Source: a virus
IMG/VR virus record: IMGVR_UViG_3300007735_000614
Location: 1 to 32,174 of that record
DNA length: 32,174 bases
Strand: one strand, 5' to 3'
Each line of letters opens with the position of its first letter. The stretch's first letter is position 1. The notes beneath the pieces are model-generated. The model was not told the DNA's origin. It worked only from the letters and a program-made list of their open reading frames with translations, and made no database searches. The position numbers were made by a program, and so were the translations under genes. Positions 2,160-22,927 of the stretch are shown piece after piece.

Positions 2160-3640
2160 CTGACTGGTTTCGCCGACAGCCGCAGCCCGCAGCCGCTCCC
2201 GTGATGGAGGAGCGCGCTGTCGTTGACCGCACGCCGATCGGGCAGCCGCCGGGCGGAGCGCAGGCGTACATCTCGTCCTATGCCGACACGGGCCGCTCGA
2301 TCACGCCGGAGGCCGCGAGGGAGGCTCCGACGGTCTATGCGTGCACGCGGCTCATCTCGCAGTCGGTGGCGCGCATGGAGTGGCGCGTCATGCGTCGCGA
2401 GGGCGGGATCCCGGTGCCGGCGCGGGAGCACCCGCTCTATCGGCTCCTGAATGTCGAGCCCAACGACTACATGGGCGCGCTCGTCTGGCGCGAGTCGATG
2501 CTGCTCGACTGCCTGCTCTACGGGAACGCTTATAGCGTGATCGAGCGCGACGCTTCCGGCCGCGTGGTCGGCCTGCACAAGTTGCGCGCCGATAGCGTTG
2601 AGGTCTCGCGTGGCGCAGACGGGATGCCCGTCTACACCTACAACTCGGCGCGCTGGGATCGGCGCACCTCGGGCGAGGTGTACCAGGGGTACGACATCTT
2701 CCACCTCCGCGCGCCTAGCCTCGACGGTCTCCTCGGCGAGACCCCGATCTATCTCGTGCGGAACATCATCGGCGTGGAACTCGAGGCCGAGAAGTTCGTC
2801 GCTTCGTTCTTCCGCAACGGCGCACGGCCGGCGGGGATCATCAAGGTCGCGGGCACGATCACCGAGGAGGCGCTAAAGCGTCTGCGGCAGTCGTGGCAGG
2901 CGATCACGGGCGGCGCGGAGAACGCCGGCCGCGTGGCGATCCTCGAGAGCGGCTACCAATGGGAGAGCGTGAGCGTGAATCCCGAGGAGGCGAAACTCGT
3001 CGAGTTGCGCTCCTTCTGTCGCTCGCAGATCGCGGCCGCGTTCAACGTCCCGGTGCACATGGTCGGCGACGCGACGAAGACCTCATACGCGAGCGCCGAG
3101 CAGGCCGATGCCGAGTTTGTGAAGCATTGCCTCTCAAACTGGGCGAGCCGCTTCGAGGAGGAGTGCGCGCGCAAGCTCGTGCGCTCTGGCGAGCCGATCG
3201 AGACGCATATCTCGTTCGACGCGCTCCTGCGTGGCGATCTCTCGTCGCGATTCGCGGCGTACTCGACGGCGCTCAACAATGGTTTCCTCACGATCAACGA
3301 AGTGCGCGAGCGCGAGAATTACGCGCCGATCGATGGCGGCGATGTGGCTCGCGCGCCCGTGAATCTGGCGATCGTCGATCCGAACGTCGTGAAGTCTGGC
3401 GATGTCTCGCCGATCACCGCACCGCCTCCGGCCGTGCCGGCGGTGGCTCCCGCGACTGCGCCGACCGCTCGAGATTCCAAGGGGCGTTTCGCGCGCAAGG
3501 CCGAGCGGTACGCGGATCTCGACGAGGCGACCCAGAAGTGCGTCGAGACGAAGATCCCGAAACTGCTCGATGAGGGCTACCCGCAGGAGCAGGCCGTGGC
3601 GATCGCGATCGCGATGTGCAAGGAGGGCTCGGGTGGCTGA
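2150..3640 (+). CDS. Portal protein, HK97 type, with extra C-terminal module
   Basis: 496 residues. Forms the ring at the unique head vertex through which DNA passes. Family signatures include the N-terminal stretch APTVYACTRLISQSVA, YGNAYSVIERD, the stem/wing region, and FNVPVHMVGDATKTSYASAEQ before the crown. After an Ala/Pro-rich linker (about 415-440) it carries a separate ~40-residue tail with KCVETKIPKLLDEGYPQEQA and AIAMCKEG; similar Cys-bounded segments occur in many phage structural proteins, with no function known to me. ATG at 2150 lies inside the end of terL. The core assignment is secure. Confidence 0.93.
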   Translation: MALTDWFRRQPQPAAAPVMEERAVVDRTPIGQPPGGAQAYISSYADTGRSITPEAAREAPTVYACTRLISQSVARMEWRVMRREGGIPVPAREHPLYRLLNVEPNDYMGALVWRESMLLDCLLYGNAYSVIERDASGRVVGLHKLRADSVEVSRGADGMPVYTYNSARWDRRTSGEVYQGYDIFHLRAPSLDGLLGETPIYLVRNIIGVELEAEKFVASFFRNGARPAGIIKVAGTITEEALKRLRQSWQAITGGAENAGRVAILESGYQWESVSVNPEEAKLVELRSFCRSQIAAAFNVPVHMVGDATKTSYASAEQADAEFVKHCLSNWASRFEEECARKLVRSGEPIETHISFDALLRGDLSSRFAAYSTALNNGFLTINEVRERENYAPIDGGDVARAPVNLAIVDPNVVKSGDVSPITAPPPAVPAVAPATAPTARDSKGRFARKAERYADLDEATQKCVETKIPKLLDEGYPQEQAVAIAIAMCKEGSGG

Positions 3641-4526
3641 CTCCTACGAGCCCACGAAGGCGATGCGCGACGAGGCCGAGCGAGGGCTCGCCTGGCGGCG
3701 TGAGCATGGCCGTGGCGGCACAGAGGTCGGGGTCGCTCGAGCGCGTGACATCGCGAACGGGCGGGCGCTCTCCGAGGACACGGTGCGCCGCATGGCGAGT
3801 TACTTCGCTCGGCACGAGGTGGACAAGCAGGGGCAGGGGTGGGGGCCGGGCGAGCCGGGATTCCCTTCTGCCGGCAGGATCGCGTGGGCGCTCTGGGGTG
3901 GAGACCCCGGTCGCTCGTTCGCCGAGAGCATTCTCGAGCGCCTCGATAGGGCGCAGGAGGTCACGATGGAGCGTCGATATGGCGAGCGTCTGGAAGCACG
4001 GGCCGAGGTCGAGGCGGGGCGCGAGGTGCTGCGCGGCTACGCGAGCGTGACCGAGACAGCGTATCCGATCGGCTACGGCCAAGAGATCATCGCTCGGGGC
4101 GCGTTCGAGCGGACCCTGCGCGAGAAGCCCGACGTGGTCGCGCTCTGGAACCACGACGCGAGCCTCCCAATCGGCCGCACGACGGCCGGCAGTCTGCGGC
4201 TCATCGAGGACGAGCGCGGGCTGCTCGTCGAGCTCGAGCCGATCGACACTCAGGCGGGCCGCGACGCGCGTATCGCGGTGCGCTCGGGCGTGGTCTCGGC
4301 GATGTCGTTCGGCTTCATCGTCAAGGGCGATCGCTTCGAGGAGCGCGACGGGAAGGTGCACCGGATCATCGAGGACGTGGAACTGCACGAGGTGTCGGCG
4401 GTGACGTTCCCGGCTAACCCGGCGACGGATCTCGTGGTCGATCGGCGGTCGTTCGACATCTGGAGCGGGGAGCACCAGTCGCCTCGGATCGTCCGGCGGC
4501 GCTTCTGGCTTGGCCCGAAGCGTTGA
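3633..4526 (+). CDS. Prohead protease (HK97/U35-like) with N-terminal accessory module
   Basis: 297 residues from GTG 3633, with AGGAGGG five bases upstream and overlap with the portal stop. Residues 1-111 form a module seen in other phage head clusters (RGLAWRREHGRGGTEVGVAR, SAGRIAWALWGGDPGRSF), function unknown. Residues 112-297 are a caudovirus prohead protease: the probable catalytic His lies in LWNHDASLPIGRT (about residue 174) and Ser in SAMSFGF (about 225). It should cleave the scaffold-like N-terminus of capsid protein 2 during maturation. A second strong ribosome binding site (CAGGAGG) precedes in-frame ATG 3966, so a stand-alone protease may also be made. Confidence 0.88.
   Translation: MADSYEPTKAMRDEAERGLAWRREHGRGGTEVGVARARDIANGRALSEDTVRRMASYFARHEVDKQGQGWGPGEPGFPSAGRIAWALWGGDPGRSFAESILERLDRAQEVTMERRYGERLEARAEVEAGREVLRGYASVTETAYPIGYGQEIIARGAFERTLREKPDVVALWNHDASLPIGRTTAGSLRLIEDERGLLVELEPIDTQAGRDARIAVRSGVVSAMSFGFIVKGDRFEERDGKVHRIIEDVELHEVSAVTFPANPATDLVVDRRSFDIWSGEHQSPRIVRRRFWLGPKR
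3954..3968 (+). promoter_or_regulatory. Internal ribosome binding site and start of the short protease form
   Basis: CAGGAGG at 3954-3960 and a five-base spacer precede ATG 3966, in frame with the long gene. It falls exactly at the boundary between the accessory module and the protease fold, so a 186-residue protease could be translated on its own. Whether both forms are made cannot be told from sequence. Confidence 0.55.
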
Positions 4527-4559
4527 CCAGTAGGGGCCAAAACGGAGAGGATTCAATAC

Positions 4560-5642
4560 ATGGAACAGAAGAGCAGTCGGGCGGCTTTCCTTCGATACCT
4601 CGCGCGTGGCGCGAGCGCGATCTCATCGTCGGACGCGCAGGCGATCTACGAGGCGCGTGGGGTCACGGGCACATCGTCCGGGATCGCGCCGAGCAACTGG
4701 GCCTCTTTCTTCACCGACTCGATGGAGACATCGTGGCTGCTTTCGCGCGTCCGCAAGGTCGAGGTGAACTCAAACAAGTTGACGGTGAGCCACTACAACG
4801 AAGCATTCGAGACTGGCGACCGTATGTCCTCGGATGAAGAGGGCACTCGCGTTGACATCACGGGATCCTTCAGTCTTCCGCATTGGCGAACTACGGGAGC
4901 CGCGCCGTCAAACTATGACATGAACTACGAGCATCGGCCGATCACGCTCCACGATGTCGGAGTGAATCTGATCGTGTCGAAGGAACTCATCGAGGAGTCG
5001 ATCGGCAGCGAAAGCGCCGAGGCGGTGCTTCGCGACTTTCTCGTGCGCAAGTTGCAGACCGAGATCGAGCGACAGATTCTCGTCGGCGATCCCGCTCTGA
5101 ACTCGAACAGCAAGAAGGAATGTCAGGGCATCTGGAACTTCCCGCTCTTCAAGAGCCCGACGAGCGTCTACGGCTCAAACAATCAAGTCGTGGACGATGC
5201 GAACGGTGTCGCCGGCGGCGCGATCTCTGGTCTGTCACGCATCGAGATCATGAGCCGAATCATCCGGCCATCGTCCTTCGGCAACTCGGTATGGGTGATC
5301 GCTCGCGCTGCTTCTATCGCGGAAGTCTTCATTACCGAGAGCGTCAACAGCAACCACACGATGGGCTCGAGCGTGCCTGATTCTTTCGGCTCGATCTTCA
5401 ATCGTCCCATCTACGGGATGCCATACGTCAACTATCAGGGCGAAGCGGATGCGACAGGCGAGCGTCTCCTGCTCCTGGTCGATCTGTCGAAGTACGTCCT
5501 CGCGATTCACTCGAGCGGCTTCCAAGTGGAGCGGCTCAACGAAGTGCGCGCAGGAACCGGCCAAGTCATCCTTCGGGCATCCGTCCGCGTGGGCGGGAAC
5601 ATGATCGACCCCAAGTCGCTCATCTGTCTGAAGGCCAACTGA
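4560..5642 (+). CDS. Major capsid protein 1 (HK97 fold, no scaffold domain)
   Basis: 360 residues. It has the HK97 capsid order: an N-arm and beta region (GIAPSNWASFFTDSMETSWLL), the spine-helix region with IVSKELIEES and TEIERQILVGDPALN, and the A-domain and C-terminus (FNRPIYGMPYV, LLLLVDLSKYVLAIHSSGFQVERLNEVRAG). These align in order with the neighbouring capsid protein 2, but the long N-terminal coiled-coil delta domain is missing. Ribosome binding site GGAGAGGA precedes ATG 4560. Third codon positions look less GC-rich than in the flanking genes, hinting at separate origin. It could be a second shell subunit, a vertex variant or a paralogue in decay, though the frame is intact. Confidence 0.8.
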   Translation: MEQKSSRAAFLRYLARGASAISSSDAQAIYEARGVTGTSSGIAPSNWASFFTDSMETSWLLSRVRKVEVNSNKLTVSHYNEAFETGDRMSSDEEGTRVDITGSFSLPHWRTTGAAPSNYDMNYEHRPITLHDVGVNLIVSKELIEESIGSESAEAVLRDFLVRKLQTEIERQILVGDPALNSNSKKECQGIWNFPLFKSPTSVYGSNNQVVDDANGVAGGAISGLSRIEIMSRIIRPSSFGNSVWVIARAASIAEVFITESVNSNHTMGSSVPDSFGSIFNRPIYGMPYVNYQGEADATGERLLLLVDLSKYVLAIHSSGFQVERLNEVRAGTGQVILRASVRVGGNMIDPKSLICLKAN

Positions 5643-5669
5643 TCCACACTTTCCACAAGGAGGAAACAC

Positions 5670-6935
5670 ATGGTGGACGCATACAAGGAACTCGTCGAAA
5701 AGATGGGCGAGCTCTACGCAGAGATGAGCACGATGATCGAGGCTATGGCCTCGGCTGAAGGCGAAGAACTCGCTTCGATGGAGAAGCAGATCGAAGAGAA
5801 GAAGTCGAAGTACGACGCTCTCGCCAAGCGCCGCGACATGATGGCTGATCTCAACGCGCGCGCCGCCAAGGGCTCGCACGGCGTGGTCGTGGTCGAGCGC
5901 GATGCGCCCGCCGTTGCGACCGTGCAGAAGCGCGGTGGCATGGTGACCGACGGCAAGTATGCCGATGCGTTCGCGGACTACCTGAAGCGCGGCTACTCGC
6001 CGACCTTCGACACGCGCGCTCTGTCGGCTGGCTCGGGTGCGGACGGCGGATTCCTGCCCAGCGAGGGCTTCTACGCGCAGTTGCAGAAGTCGATTCAGCA
6101 GGAGACCACGATCATGAACCTCTGCCGCCGGATCCCCGTCGGCACGTTCACGACGAACCTCACGCTCGAGGTGGACTTCACCTCGACCGACTTCGACTCG
6201 GCGAGCACCACCGAGGGCTGGGCCGGCGAAGGCGGCGCGGTGGGCGAATACTCGCCGACCTACGCCAACGTGACCTTCACGGGCAACGCGCTGCGCCGCG
6301 TGGTCAAGGTCTCGAAGGAACTCGTCGCGGACGCTCCGTCGCGCGGCGGAGACTTCTCGATCGAGTCGATCGTCGCGAATCGCCTCGGCCAACTCTTCGC
6401 GCACTCGATCGAGTACGCGCTGTGGCAGGGCAGCGGCACGAACCGCCCGACCGGGATCACCCAGTCGAGCCTCACCGCAGGTGACACGCTCGGGACCGCC
6501 GGCACGCTGACCGCCGACGAACTGATCGACTTCGTCTACGCGCTGCCGCAGAAGTACCGCGTCTCGCCGACGTGCGCGATCGTGGCCCACGACTCGTTCT
6601 TCAAGGCTGTCCGCAAGCTGAAGCAGGCCGTGACCACGAGCGGCTCGATCCCCTACCTCTGGGAAGAGTCCTTCCAGGCAGGCGAGCCCGCTCGTCTGCT
6701 CGGAATCCCGGTCTACGCGAGCCCCTACGCCACGACCTTCGGCTCGACGGCCGCGGCAACCCTCGCGGTGGTCGGTGACTTCCAGCACTTCGTCATGGCC
6801 GAGCGTTCGGGCATGGAGGTGCAGGTGCTCCGCGAACTCTACGCGGGCAACGGCCAGATCGGCTACATGGGCGAGATGCGCCTCGATGCGAAGATCGCTC
6901 GCACCGATGCCTTCCGCACGCTCGTGAACCCGTGA
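5670..6935 (+). CDS. Major capsid protein 2 (HK97 family, with N-terminal delta domain)
   Basis: 421 residues. Classic HK97-family capsid protein. Residues 1-60 are a charged coiled coil (EKQIEEKKSKYDALAKRRD) acting as built-in scaffold, then a linker up to about residue 110 where the protease should cut. The mature part has SGSGADGGFLPSEGF, TEGWAGEGGAVGE, HSIEYALWQGSGTNRPTGI, LLGIPVYASPY and FVMAERSGMEVQVLRE. The ribosome binding site AAGGAGGA is close to ideal, as expected for an abundant protein. It sits 27 bases after capsid protein 1 and is followed by a hairpin terminator. This is the more canonical of the two shell proteins. Confidence 0.93.
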   Translation: MVDAYKELVEKMGELYAEMSTMIEAMASAEGEELASMEKQIEEKKSKYDALAKRRDMMADLNARAAKGSHGVVVVERDAPAVATVQKRGGMVTDGKYADAFADYLKRGYSPTFDTRALSAGSGADGGFLPSEGFYAQLQKSIQQETTIMNLCRRIPVGTFTTNLTLEVDFTSTDFDSASTTEGWAGEGGAVGEYSPTYANVTFTGNALRRVVKVSKELVADAPSRGGDFSIESIVANRLGQLFAHSIEYALWQGSGTNRPTGITQSSLTAGDTLGTAGTLTADELIDFVYALPQKYRVSPTCAIVAHDSFFKAVRKLKQAVTTSGSIPYLWEESFQAGEPARLLGIPVYASPYATTFGSTAAATLAVVGDFQHFVMAERSGMEVQVLRELYAGNGQIGYMGEMRLDAKIARTDAFRTLVNP

Positions 6936-9187: not shown

Positions 9188-9577
9188 ATGGCACTCTCTT
9201 CTTACAACACGACTATCTCGATCGGCGGTACGAGTCTCGGAGAGGTGACCAACATCTCGGTCGGCGGATCTTCGCTGACCGAGATCGACATCACGAACCT
9301 GTCATCGACGGACAAGGCATACGTCATGGGCGCGCTCGAGGCTGGCACGCTCACGATCGACTTTTTCGCTCCTGCGAACTTCGCGGACTTCTCCGCTTCC
9401 CTCATTCCTGTGAGCGGAGATGCGACGGCCACGGCGTTCGTCATCGACTTTTCCGGCGGGGTTCTCGAGGCTAGTTTTTCGGGCATCTGCACGAATCTCT
9501 CGATCTCCGCAGAGCAGGATGGCGCGGTGACCGCGTCTGCTTCTGTCAAGCTCACGACCGCGATCACCTGGGCCTAA
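9188..9577 (+). CDS. Tail tube protein paralogue A
   Basis: 129 residues. Beta-rich protein of the siphophage tail-tube class, the building block of the hollow tube. Motifs GEVTNISVGGSSLTEIDITNL, MGALEAGTLTIDFFAPANF and NLSISAEQDGAVTASASVKL recur almost unchanged in the next gene. The ribosome binding site is GAGGAG. No extra immunoglobulin-like domain is present; length is short for a lone tube protein. First of three tandem paralogues. Confidence 0.82.
   Translation: MALSSYNTTISIGGTSLGEVTNISVGGSSLTEIDITNLSSTDKAYVMGALEAGTLTIDFFAPANFADFSASLIPVSGDATATAFVIDFSGGVLEASFSGICTNLSISAEQDGAVTASASVKLTTAITWA
9239..9382 (+). repeat. Direct repeat, copy in tube gene A
   Basis: A 144-base stretch starting 51 bases into tube gene A matches the stretch at the same offset in tube gene B, including a near-identical run from GGAGAGGTGACCAACATCTC onward. 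DNA-level similarity implies duplication of the gene within the phage lineage rather than distant paralogy. Confidence 0.75.
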
Positions 9578-9581
9578 TCTC

Positions 9582-9971
9582 ATGGCACTTTCCGCATACG
9601 CAACAGAGTTCTATGCGGCCGGGATTCTCATCGGAGAGGTGACCAACATCTCGGTGGGCGGGTCTTCGCTGACTGAGATCGACATCACCAGCCTGACGAG
9701 CACCGACAAGTCGTACATCATGGGCGCGCTCGATACCGGAACGATCACGATCGACTTCTTCGCCCCTGCGAACTTCTCCGGTTTCTCCCCGGTCATGCAG
9801 CCCTTGAGCGGGGATGATTCGGCCAGCGTGTTTCAAGTCATTTTCGCAGGCGGTGCTTTGAGCGCCTCCATTCTCGGCATCTGTACCAACCTGTCCATCT
9901 CGGCAGAGCAGGACGGCGCGGTGACTGCTTCTTCCACAATCAAGGCCACTTCGGCAATCACTTGGAGTTGA
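9582..9971 (+). CDS. Tail tube protein paralogue B
   Basis: 129 residues, exactly the length of paralogue A and nearly identical over residues 18-65 and 103-118; the N-terminus and the 66-100 region differ (FSPVMQPLSGDDSASVF). The gene starts five bases after paralogue A stops and has no clear ribosome binding site, so it probably depends on reinitiation, which would couple its level to A. It could form a mixed tube, a second tube type or one end of the tail. Confidence 0.8.
   Translation: MALSAYATEFYAAGILIGEVTNISVGGSSLTEIDITSLTSTDKSYIMGALDTGTITIDFFAPANFSGFSPVMQPLSGDDSASVFQVIFAGGALSASILGICTNLSISAEQDGAVTASSTIKATSAITWS
9633..9776 (+). repeat. Direct repeat, copy in tube gene B
   Basis: Partner of the repeat at 9239-9382: same length, same offset within the gene, most changes at third codon positions. 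This pattern indicates that both copies are under selection for protein sequence. Confidence 0.75.
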
Positions 9972-9975
9972 ACTC

Positions 9976-10431
9976 ATGGCAATCGTCGCACCAGGATCGC
10001 TTTTCAAGTACGCACCGACCGTCGGAGCCGGGGGCACCGTGAGCGTCACCGTGGCCGAGATCAAGTCGATTTCCGTCGATGGGATCTCGATCGCGGAGAT
10101 CGACACCTCGGCTCTTTCATCTTCCATCAAGTCGTTCATCGGCGGCACCAAGGACTCGGGAACGATCTCGATCTCCCTTTTCGCTCCGGCCTACAGCGCA
10201 GCCCTGCTCGGTACTACATCGAACAATGGCGCGCTGAATCCTGCGACCTATGCAAACGGTGCCGACTTCCGCAAGTTCGCAATCCAGTTTGGCCCCAATA
10301 CCGGGGCGGGTGGATTCGAGTTGGCGTTCTCCGGCTATGTCACATCGTTCAATGTTTCGGCCGCTGTCGATGGCGCAGTTGAAGCCGACCTGTCGATCCG
10401 CGTCACCGGAGCGTTCACTTCCTCGACCTGA
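9976..10431 (+). CDS. Tail tube protein paralogue C (diverged)
   Basis: 151 residues. It keeps the paralogue pattern at a distance: VAEIKSISVDGISIAEIDTSALSSSIKSFIGGTKDSGTISISLFAPAY matches the conserved part of A and B position by position, and SFNVSAAVDGAVEADLSIRVTGAF matches their C-terminal strands. Its middle has an insertion of about 15-20 residues. GGAG lies eight bases before the ATG. Being the longest, it may be the main tube subunit, with A and B as variants, or all may share the tube. Confidence 0.8.
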   Translation: MAIVAPGSLFKYAPTVGAGGTVSVTVAEIKSISVDGISIAEIDTSALSSSIKSFIGGTKDSGTISISLFAPAYSAALLGTTSNNGALNPATYANGADFRKFAIQFGPNTGAGGFELAFSGYVTSFNVSAAVDGAVEADLSIRVTGAFTSST

Positions 10432-18518: not shown

Positions 18519-18928
18519 TCGCCGCCCTCCTCGCTGCCGCCCTCACCGTCCCGCCGCCCGCCGACACGGATGTGCGCCGCATCCTCGACACGCTTCAGGC
18601 TGTCGAAACGGGCGGAGAGCGCGACCCTGATCGCGCAGTCGGTGACGGCGGCAAGGCGCTCGGCGCTTTTCAGGTGTGGCGCATCTACTGGGCCGATGCG
18701 TGCGAGTACGACCCGACCCTGCGCGAGCGCGGCTATGAGGCCGTGACCGACCGCGAGTACGCCGAGCGCGTCGTGATCGCGTACCTCTCGCGCTACTGCA
18801 AGACTTGGACGATTGACGAGTGCGCACGCATTCACAACGGCGGCCCCGCTGGCGCGACGAAGCGGAGGAAGGCGACTGACGGCTACGCAGCCAAGGCGAG
18901 GAAGGAGTGGCAGCGATGCGATACTTGA
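18515..18928 (+). CDS. Exported endolysin, i-type-lysozyme-like
   Basis: 137 residues from GTG 18515 (CAGGAGG upstream, GTGA overlap). Residues 1-12 are a short hydrophobic signal or anchor, then PPP. The domain carries LQAVETGGERDPDRAVGDGG (Glu31 and Asp44 are candidate catalytic residues), LGAFQVWRIYWADAC, AERVVIAYLSRYC and CARIHNGGPAG, the last being the hallmark of invertebrate-type lysozymes and bacterial relatives. Four cysteines suit an exported, disulfide-bonded enzyme. It would cut peptidoglycan from the periplasm. It lies apart from the spanin-like gene, across the control region. Confidence 0.75.
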   Translation: MIAALLAAALTVPPPADTDVRRILDTLQAVETGGERDPDRAVGDGGKALGAFQVWRIYWADACEYDPTLRERGYEAVTDREYAERVVIAYLSRYCKTWTIDECARIHNGGPAGATKRRKATDGYAAKARKEWQRCDT

Positions 18929-20214
18929 GCGTGTGCAGCGGCATCGAGGCCGCAAGCGTGGCCTGGCATCACCTCGGATGGAAGCCCGTCGGATTCAGCG
19001 AGATCGAGCCGTTCCCTAGCGCCGTCCTCGCGCATCGTTTCCCAAACGTCCCCAACTTCGGAGATATGACTCGTCATGCAGAATGGAACCTCGGACCCGG
19101 ATCAGTTGACCTTCTGGTCGGCGGAACTCCCTGCCAAAGCTTCAGCGTCGCAGGACTCCGCAAAGGTCTGTCCGACCCCAGAGGCGGACTCATGCTCACC
19201 TATCTTGAGATCGCTCAACGTCTGCGGCCTCGATGGGTTGTCTGGGAGAATGTCCCCGGTGTCCTGTCATCAGGATCAGGAAGGGATCTTGGTGCCTTCC
19301 TCGGGGCGTTGGGGGAACTGGGGTATGGGTGGGCCTACCGGGTGCTGGACGCTCAATGGGTGCGAACACAACGGCACCCACGCGCCGTCCCGCAGCGCAG
19401 GCGACGTATCTTCGTTGTCGGATGTCTTGGAGACCCAACCGCTGCCGCCCAGGTTCTCCTTGAGCGCGAGAGCGTGTGCCGGGATTCTGCGCCGCGCCGA
19501 GCGGCGAGGGAAGGCGTTGCCGCCGATGCTGAAGCAGGCGTTGGAGCAGGCTGCTACTGGGACGGGAGCGACTGCGCCGGGACGCTGACGAAGCAGAATG
19601 CGAACGGAGCGCAGCGGATGCCCGATAAGGACAACTTCGGCGCGGTGTTGCAGCCTGTCGGCTACCGCTGGCAGAACGATCGCGAAGGGCTAGTTGAGGA
19701 TGGCACGGCCCCGGCGTGTCGGGCATCGACTGGTAGCAGCGGTTTTCACGAGATGAACCACCCGGTGATCGCGCAGCCCGTCGCCTTCCGCAAGTCCCGC
19801 CGAGCGAAGAGCGTCAACGATCACGAGACCTGGGTCGCAGCTGAACAGGCGAACACGCTGAACCAGTTCGATACTGGCGAGCGCGACACGCATGCGGTGG
19901 CGTTTCATCCCACGCAAGATCCGATTAGCAGCAGCGAATCTATGCACGCGCTCGGTACTGGAAACAGGTCCGGATGTGCGACCGCAGCCGTGCTGCAAGC
20001 GATGACGGTGCGCCGCCTCACGCCACGCGAGTGCGAGCGTCTTCAAGGATTCCCCGATGACTGGACGATGATCCCGTGGCGCAAGAAGCCCGCCGAGGAC
20101 TGCCCAGACGGGCCGCGCTACAAGGCGCTCGGCAACAGCATGGCCGTCAACGTGATGGCTTGGATCGGAGAGCGCATCGCCGGGGTCGAAGCCCAGAGCG
20201 CAGGAAACCCCTAA
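18916..20214 (+). CDS. DNA cytosine-5 methyltransferase
   Basis: 432 residues. Transfers methyl from SAM to C5 of cytosine. Motif I is VCSGIEAASVAW at 6-17; motif IV GGTPCQSFS at 69-77 with catalytic Cys73; motif VI ENV at 111-113; motif VIII QRRRR at 160-164; motif X GNSMAVNV near 405. The long middle (about 170-370) is the target-recognition region. ATG 18916 is chosen over GTG 18907 for its GGAG at 18904. It overlaps the endolysin by 13 bases and has no endonuclease partner, so self-protection against restriction is likely. A second reading frame inside it also looks coding. Confidence 0.93.
   Translation: MRYLSVCSGIEAASVAWHHLGWKPVGFSEIEPFPSAVLAHRFPNVPNFGDMTRHAEWNLGPGSVDLLVGGTPCQSFSVAGLRKGLSDPRGGLMLTYLEIAQRLRPRWVVWENVPGVLSSGSGRDLGAFLGALGELGYGWAYRVLDAQWVRTQRHPRAVPQRRRRIFVVGCLGDPTAAAQVLLERESVCRDSAPRRAAREGVAADAEAGVGAGCYWDGSDCAGTLTKQNANGAQRMPDKDNFGAVLQPVGYRWQNDREGLVEDGTAPACRASTGSSGFHEMNHPVIAQPVAFRKSRRAKSVNDHETWVAAEQANTLNQFDTGERDTHAVAFHPTQDPISSSESMHALGTGNRSGCATAAVLQAMTVRRLTPRECERLQGFPDDWTMIPWRKKPAEDCPDGPRYKALGNSMAVNVMAWIGERIAGVEAQSAGNP
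19076..19588 (+). CDS. Probable overprinted gene inside the methyltransferase
   Basis: 170 residues in another frame of the methyltransferase gene. The protein is not random-looking: QLTFWSAELPA near the N-terminus, CSPILRSLNVCGLDGLSG, DGILVPSSGRWGNWGMG, and a C-terminal segment SLSDVLETQPLPPRFSLSA, CAGILRRAERRGKALPPMLK. From memory, phage proteins with these motifs are encoded beside or within cytosine methyltransferase genes. GGAG lies 12 bases before ATG 19076, longer than usual. It may be real, or a conserved by-product of the methyltransferase codons. Function unknown. Confidence 0.58.
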   Translation: MQNGTSDPDQLTFWSAELPAKASASQDSAKVCPTPEADSCSPILRSLNVCGLDGLSGRMSPVSCHQDQEGILVPSSGRWGNWGMGGPTGCWTLNGCEHNGTHAPSRSAGDVSSLSDVLETQPLPPRFSLSARACAGILRRAERRGKALPPMLKQALEQAATGTGATAPGR

Positions 20215-22016: not shown

Positions 22017-22182
22017 CGATCCCGCATCCATCGACTCCTGGAAAGACCTCGAGAGCAAGTGCGTGCGCGTGACCTGCCCGACCTGTGACCATGTCGAACT
22101 CGTGCCCGGCAAGCCCGGCGAGGTCGAGAACCATGTCGAGTGCTGGCATTGCCTTCGCGACCGAATGGCGGACGAGCCATGA
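22009..22182 (+). CDS. Zinc-ribbon mini-protein
   Basis: 57 residues from GTG 22009 (AAGGAGG about seven bases ahead). CPTC...CWHC with about 23 residues between makes a likely zinc ribbon. It lies two genes before the Mom-like enzyme. In phage Mu the small zinc protein Com sits before mom and switches on its translation, so a Com-like role is an attractive guess, but sequence similarity to Com beyond the Cys pairs is not evident. Confidence 0.6.
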   Translation: MSDDPASIDSWKDLESKCVRVTCPTCDHVELVPGKPGEVENHVECWHCLRDRMADEP

Positions 22183-22358
22183 TGAGCACGAAGCAGGTCG
22201 CCGATGCCGTCGGCGTGAGCGCCCAACGCATCCTCCAGATGGCACGCGCTCGAGGCATCGAGCCGGCGGCGCGCATCGGGCCCGCGTACGTCTGGCACGA
22301 GGCCGACCTACCGCGATTCGACCGACGGCGGGCCGGCAGGCCGAGGAGTCACGGATGA
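22179..22358 (+). CDS. Small HTH DNA-binding protein (MerR/excisionase-like)
   Basis: 59 residues. STKQVADAVGVSAQRILQMARARGI is a helix-turn-helix of the HTH_17/MerR type, followed by a wing (AARIGPAYVWHEADLPRFDRRR) and a basic tail. Starts in an ATGA overlap and ends in an overlap with the Mom-like gene. Likely a transcription factor or DNA-bending protein; its site is unknown. With no integrase in view, a regulator is more likely than an excisionase. Confidence 0.7.
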   Translation: MMSTKQVADAVGVSAQRILQMARARGIEPAARIGPAYVWHEADLPRFDRRRAGRPRSHG

Positions 22359-22927
22359 AACCAGACGGGCCAGTATTCGATTCGGTATGGCGGAAGTCTT
22401 GTCATATCGAGCGCGTCGGGATCGCTGATGTGGATCAGTTCATCCAGGCGCACTATCTGAAGAAGCGTCCCGCGATCGTGCTGCTCGCTCTGGCGATGGT
22501 ATGCAACGGCGAAAAGGTCGGATGCATTATCTACTCCGCTCCACCGATGCAGACCGAGAAGCGTCTAGGCGGAAAGACTTGGGAACTAGCAAGGCTGTAT
22601 CTAATCGATCGAATGCCAAAAAACTCGGAGACATGGCTCATCGGGCAGAGCATCAAGTACATCAAGCGCGAGCGTCGAGATGTCCTATTCTTGGTGAGTT
22701 ACGCCGACCCGACAGTAGGTCACGATGGAACGATCTATCGTGCAGCTAACTGGCAGGATGAAGGGCTTACAGATTCCGAACGTAAGACCCCACGATGCGA
22801 CTACTACGACGGCCGTACAGGAAAGAAGTACGGGCGTAAGGGCAATATGCCGTCAGACGCCGTAATCGTTCGCCATCCTCGCACACCCAAGCATCGATTC
22901 GTGTATGCGATGAGGAGTCACACATGA
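22355..22927 (+). CDS. Mom-like adenine modification enzyme
   Basis: 190 residues. Matches the Mom family pattern: a His-Tyr motif at 33-34 (QAHYLKKRP), KVGCIIYSAPP at 54-64, ELARLYLIDRMPKNSETWLIGQ at about 77-98, VSYADPTVGHDGTIYRAANW at 114-133, then RKTPR and KHRFVYAM near the end. Mu Mom has a GNAT-type fold and turns adenine into a carbamoylmethyl derivative that blocks many restriction enzymes. Codons are clearly less GC-rich than in neighbours (AAAAAACTC at 22618), indicating transfer. It overlaps the HTH and CsrA-like genes by four bases each. Confidence 0.82.
   Translation: MKPDGPVFDSVWRKSCHIERVGIADVDQFIQAHYLKKRPAIVLLALAMVCNGEKVGCIIYSAPPMQTEKRLGGKTWELARLYLIDRMPKNSETWLIGQSIKYIKRERRDVLFLVSYADPTVGHDGTIYRAANWQDEGLTDSERKTPRCDYYDGRTGKKYGRKGNMPSDAVIVRHPRTPKHRFVYAMRSHT

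Follow-up and report, generated by a model that had tools for sequence, protein, structure and literature searches.

The closest described precedent for a head built from two HK97-fold proteins is bacteriophage T4, in which gp24, ~20% identical to gp23 and carrying a propeptide of 10 residues as opposed to 65, fills eleven of the vertices (PMC9958956). In a 2025 paper, T4 is named as the only virus in which two HK97-fold proteins are known to have separate roles (PMC12407261). Elsewhere, Ccm occupies the pentamers of SaPIbov5 procapsids (PMC8569155), and two HK97 proteins mix irregularly in an encapsulin of Streptomyces lydicus (PMC12407261). When the open-access literature was searched for further phages with HK97 capsid genes in tandem, it gave the T4, SaPIbov5 and encapsulin precedents only.

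Here we analyze a further pair, capA and capB, in a virus record of 32,174 bases (IMG/VR IMGVR_UViG_3300007735_000614), the whole of which is referred to as the window. The head genes run in the order terL, portal, S78 protease, capA, capB, connector, head completion, neck, tail completion and tail tube, such that capA-capB is surrounded by terL, portal, protease, connector and tail genes in an arrangement resembling that of small siphophages. A sequence-only reading of the window had proposed two intact HK97-fold capsid genes, and its coordinates, frames and start codons proved correct. The locus comprises the following features:

3993..4526, plus strand: S78 prohead protease domain and gene end, directly 5' of capA (PF04586, E 8.4e-38)
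4544..4550, plus strand: capA ribosome-binding site of medium strength, GGAGAGG (-6.6 kcal/mol against the 16S tail)
4560..5642, plus strand: capA, HK97-fold capsid protein without a delta domain, 360 aa; vertex role proposed (PF05065, AlphaFold2)
4560..4661, plus strand: CapA short leader, residues 1-34; possible short propeptide (profile alignment to CapB)
5657..5663, plus strand: capB ribosome-binding site AAGGAGG, perfect (-11.4 kcal/mol)
5670..6935, plus strand: capB, HK97-fold major capsid protein with a delta domain, 421 aa; hexamer role proposed (PF05065, RcGTA match)
5670..5951, plus strand: CapB residues 1-94, the delta (scaffold) domain with its two long helices (AlphaFold2; no CapA counterpart)
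5952..6032, plus strand: CapB linker, residues 95-121 (KYADAF..DTRALSAG), presumed cleavage region (low-confidence model linker, aligned to the CapA leader)

The PF04586 match covers residues 198-351 of the protease ORF (3402-4526), and the N-terminal part of this frame (PHROG 2859) overlaps the end of the portal gene. Some relatives carry added sequence at the portal-protease junction (L062:3025-5914 and L002:2355-4060), where the portal or protease match falls into pieces. Further downstream in the window, three paralogous genes for the tail tube (major tail protein) stand in tandem at 9188-9577, 9582-9971 and 9976-10431 (PF16460 and phrog_158), with a GC3 as low as that of capA; relatives have two or three copies, which possibly form a mixed tail tube. 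A Mom-family protein (22085-22927; PF25680, E 2.6e-24) and a C5 cytosine methylase (18907-20214; PF00145) suggest that the phage DNA is modified.

Both proteins exceed the 24.2-bit gathering cut-off of PF05065 (Phage_capsid), CapA with 45.1 bits (E 1.1e-11, residues 49-358) and CapB with 157 bits (E 7.6e-46), and the same family is matched at E below 0.01 by all 31 CapA proteins in the alignment. The AlphaFold2 model of CapA (pTM 0.71, mean pLDDT 67) has the full-length HK97 topology, including the spine helix and the C-terminal sheet, and among solved structures it matches the capsid protein of RcGTA with Z 15.9, that of HK97 prohead I with 13.9 and T4 gp24 with 13.0. The CapB model (pTM 0.57, mean pLDDT 70), whose score is pulled down by the delta domain, matches RcGTA with Z 21.2 and HK97 with ~17.8. 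Structure prediction thus finds CapA to be HK97-like, a point on which the sequence-only reading depended. In sequence searches, the nearest solved relative of CapB is RcGTA Rcc01687 (E 2.6e-60), and HMM comparison of CapA with the PDB gave RcGTA at E 1.3e-6 and T4 gp24 at E 0.07-0.12. A kinase-domain protein, the first PDB match of CapA by phmmer (E 0.0034), was taken as chance. No specific kinship of CapA with gp24 was found by sequence, the hhalign probability being 5% to gp24 and 1.5% to gp23.

CapA and CapB match one another by profile-profile comparison over 303 columns (probability 99.8, E 2.1e-29), at an identity of about 19%. In this alignment CapA residue 4 faces CapB residue 95, and the delta helices modeled at CapB residues 2-28 and 32-68 therefore have no counterpart in CapA; the delta domain is confined to the second protein, as originally claimed. 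CapB accordingly bears the N-terminal helical delta domain that characterizes HK97-type self-scaffolding. The CapA leader is homologous to the CapB segment right behind the delta coiled coil. A candidate cleavage site lies near CapB residue 117, and CapA is perhaps cleaved near residue 34.

To catalogue the pair in related viruses, IMG/VR was scanned with CapA, CapB and portal as queries, and the loci found contained the pair in the same order. Beyond the window, 37 distinct sequences contain capA-capB in full length and fall into 21 clusters, the gene order being kept; 29 belong to a close clade and 8 to a distant clade, the latter at 38-42% identity in CapB and 23-30% in CapA. Within the close clade, the leader residues R7, A9, F10, R12, Y13, L14, R16 and G17 of CapA are invariant, and the distant clade has the same contrast between a short CapA leader and a CapB delta domain. 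Across 100 loci spanning the protease and CapB, some of them overlapping, CapA is missing in L158 alone, an outgroup locus with a capsid protein 30% identical to CapB. No clade locus lacking CapA between protease and CapB was found among the loci examined; pairing is obligate in this sample. Outgroup phages, e.g. Streptococcus phage Javan630 and Vibrio phage PhiPS02, have a single capsid gene at that place. The rarity that the sequence-only reading had ascribed to two-capsid arrangements is supported. That reading had also proposed a search of related genomes for the same pair, which is now found in two diverged clades. The pair is real, conserved and unusual.

Searched by tblastn against 50,697 GenBank phages, the window CapA and a distant CapA (L134) gave no match, and a third CapA (L132) gave one capsid gene, annotated as a major head protein (E 7e-5); no cultured relative was found. 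A genome scan revealed a single fragment of CapA, which lies at the end of a contig of 4.1 kb from a Rhodobacteraceae MAG. Besides that fragment, 395 Rhodobacteraceae genomes contained weak matches only, in mostly longer frames, and these look like ordinary capsid genes.

Phylogenetic analysis resolves CapA as one clade and CapB as another, with the outgroup major capsid proteins siding with CapB, although long branches meet in the tree. The grouping of the outgroups' single capsid protein with CapB implies that CapB corresponds to the usual capsid protein and that CapA is the additional one; owing to the long branches, the tree does not separate a duplication within this lineage from the gain of an old paralog as the origin of CapA. 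Purifying selection acts on capA and capB alike, with median dN/dS of 0.44 and 0.30, respectively, and values below 1 in all usable pairs for both genes.

The capsid locus is also subject to exchange. Divergent alleles occur in near-identical backgrounds: in L028, terL and portal are 99% identical, yet CapA is 64% and CapB 65% identical; in L028, L014 and others, compared with the window, the capsid genes form islands of divergence (45-65% in places) between terL and portal genes at 98-99%, a sign of allele exchange. Moreover, CapA and CapB are exchanged independently, as separate modules, judging by the identities of individual pairs: L022 and L048 share 97% in CapA as opposed to 68% in CapB, and L006 and L044 share 95% in CapB as opposed to 63% in CapA. 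The distances of the two proteins are weakly correlated (Spearman 0.18, Mantel p 0.049). Independent swapping implies that the contact surface must be generic and, if both proteins serve, that one CapA must suit CapB proteins of differing types.

The two genes differ in their expression signals. GC3 is 0.77 in capA and 0.89 in capB, and the share of C-ending codons is higher in CapB in 27 of 27 pairs (related pairs, such that the counts are not independent), which upholds the differing codon use reported for the first gene. The low GC of capA hints at a recent import, a possibility rejected in view of the codon offset repeating in all pairs. Both ribosome-binding sites had been described as strong; this holds for the perfect site of capB, and that of capA is medium. 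The Shine-Dalgarno sequence of CapB is the stronger in 21 of 27 pairs (again related and not independent), and the six exceptions include L061, measured from a wrong start. Together, these indirect codon and Shine-Dalgarno signals suggest that CapB is made in larger amount than CapA, a reading to be set beside the tail tube genes, presumably high-copy too, which share the lower GC3 of capA.

In the HK97 fold, axial domains meet their own kind at the capsomer center and peripheral domains touch neighboring capsomers; it is frequently this axial domain that varies among HK97 proteins, as it does in many phages. The two CapA types are 64% identical across the spine region and 74% across the C-terminal region, but 23% across the axial domain, compared with 56% for the axial domain of CapB (domain limits are approximate, carried over by eye from HK97). 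The combination of free axial and fixed peripheral parts is suggestive of CapA homo-capsomers set among CapB hexamers.

We propose, with a probability of roughly 0.55, that one head is built from two HK97-fold paralogs, with CapB forming the hexamers and CapA the vertex pentamers. CapB, presumably the more abundant, would be the ordinary major capsid protein and would assemble the procapsid through its delta domain scaffold. CapA, at a lower dose and devoid of the delta coiled coil, would co-assemble via its conserved peripheral contacts. Its homo-capsomers would most likely be the pentamers of the eleven vertices not taken by the portal, in the manner of gp24 beside gp23. The adjoining S78 protease would then clear the delta domains, and the shell would expand. 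With CapB filling the hexamers, a T=7 shell, the T number being our assumption, would comprise ~55 CapA to 360 CapB. Counting against a vertex role, capsids made of a single protein show that a head can do without a dedicated vertex protein. The sequence-only reading had offered one shell of two subunits, hexamers versus vertices, as one of two options; it stands as the best reading, now supported indirectly by the expression signals, the conservation pattern and the module swapping.

Several other arrangements are conceivable. CapA and CapB might both occur within hexamers and pentamers, in a random or fixed pattern as in Family 2B encapsulins: the products of the tandem HK97-fold genes of Streptomyces lydicus co-assemble with irregular tiling (PMC12407261), and the independent exchange of CapA and CapB shows that pairing is permissive. 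Those encapsulin partners are, however, 79% identical, as opposed to about 19% here, and shared capsomers should tie the axial domains of both proteins, which stand at 23% for CapA and 56% for CapB; random tiling should probably also be costly under DNA pressure. We therefore regard mixed capsomers as rather unlikely. It is likewise unlikely that CapA controls head size or shape, its dose or presence switching the head from one size to another or from isometric to prolate. The SaPIbov5 CP homolog Ccm acts on size by taking the pentamers (PMC8569155), and a lower dose of CapA is expected here, but CapA is encoded in the head operon of the phage itself, every clade member retains it, and no alternative genome size is known.

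More improbable still is a role for CapA as a minor head protein elsewhere, for instance at the portal vertex or as a partner on the inner or outer side of the shell, for which it would have borrowed the HK97 fold. Its fast evolution and its distance in sequence from any solved capsid protein would suit such a role; its full-length HK97 topology and conserved peripheral regions better fit contacts within the lattice. The sequence-only reading had also suggested that one gene replaces the other, and a related possibility is that the two are redundant, one being a recent import and just one being used. The GC of capA is below that of its neighbors, and the capA alleles of relatives are 41-87% identical, as might be expected of replaceable genes. 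Both genes are nevertheless kept in all loci of the two clades, the codon offset recurs in 27/27 pairs and both genes have dN/dS values under 1, so replacement is unlikely and outright redundancy very improbable. Returning to the proposed hexamers of CapB and vertices of CapA, this arrangement can be placed against the known systems.

CapB is a protein of the same kind as HK97 gp5 and RcGTA Rcc01687, with a delta domain and the same fold; the difference is that in those systems one protein fills pentamers and hexamers alike. The Family 2B encapsulin of Streptomyces lydicus resembles the present locus in its two tandem HK97-fold shell genes with co-assembling products, but is non-viral, lacks terminase and portal, and forms a randomly tiled T=1 shell, which has no hexamers. 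Assignment of the pair as a two-component Family 2B encapsulin operon was dismissed, since it is flanked by terL, portal, protease, connector and tail genes. SaPIbov5 Ccm is likewise an HK97-fold capsid homolog acting beside another capsid protein, and pentamer filling has been shown for it. Ccm is, however, satellite-encoded, redirects the capsid of its helper and carries a delta domain of its own at the N terminus (residues 1-87), whereas CapA has no delta domain and belongs to the phage's own operon. CapA was also considered as a satellite capsid redirector and rejected; in every clade locus its gene is flanked by the protease and major capsid genes of the phage itself.

The closest likeness is to T4. 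Both systems have two HK97-fold paralogs, ~20% identical in T4, within one head gene cluster, one partner with a long propeptide and the other with a very short leader, and the CapA model matches gp24 (Z 13.0); CapA may thus work like gp24. The systems differ in that the minor-looking gene comes first here, the scaffold is the CapB delta domain instead of a separate core, the gene order is that of a small siphophage, and the position of CapA in the head is a prediction. These data probably represent a second phage lineage, its capsid unrelated to that of T4 by the sequence tests used here, with a shell of two HK97 paralogs of which one is scaffolded and which are swapped separately, the outcome being either a freely exchanged vertex piece or a variable mixed capsid. 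If true, this would provide a second, independent and compact two-HK97 case in small siphophage-like genomes, and would allow one to ask when a dedicated corner protein benefits a phage, how a scaffold-less subunit enters the shell, and how separately swapped capsid genes still fit. The principle is known from T4; what is new is the lineage and the build, a scaffolded and a scaffold-less partner swapped as separate modules.
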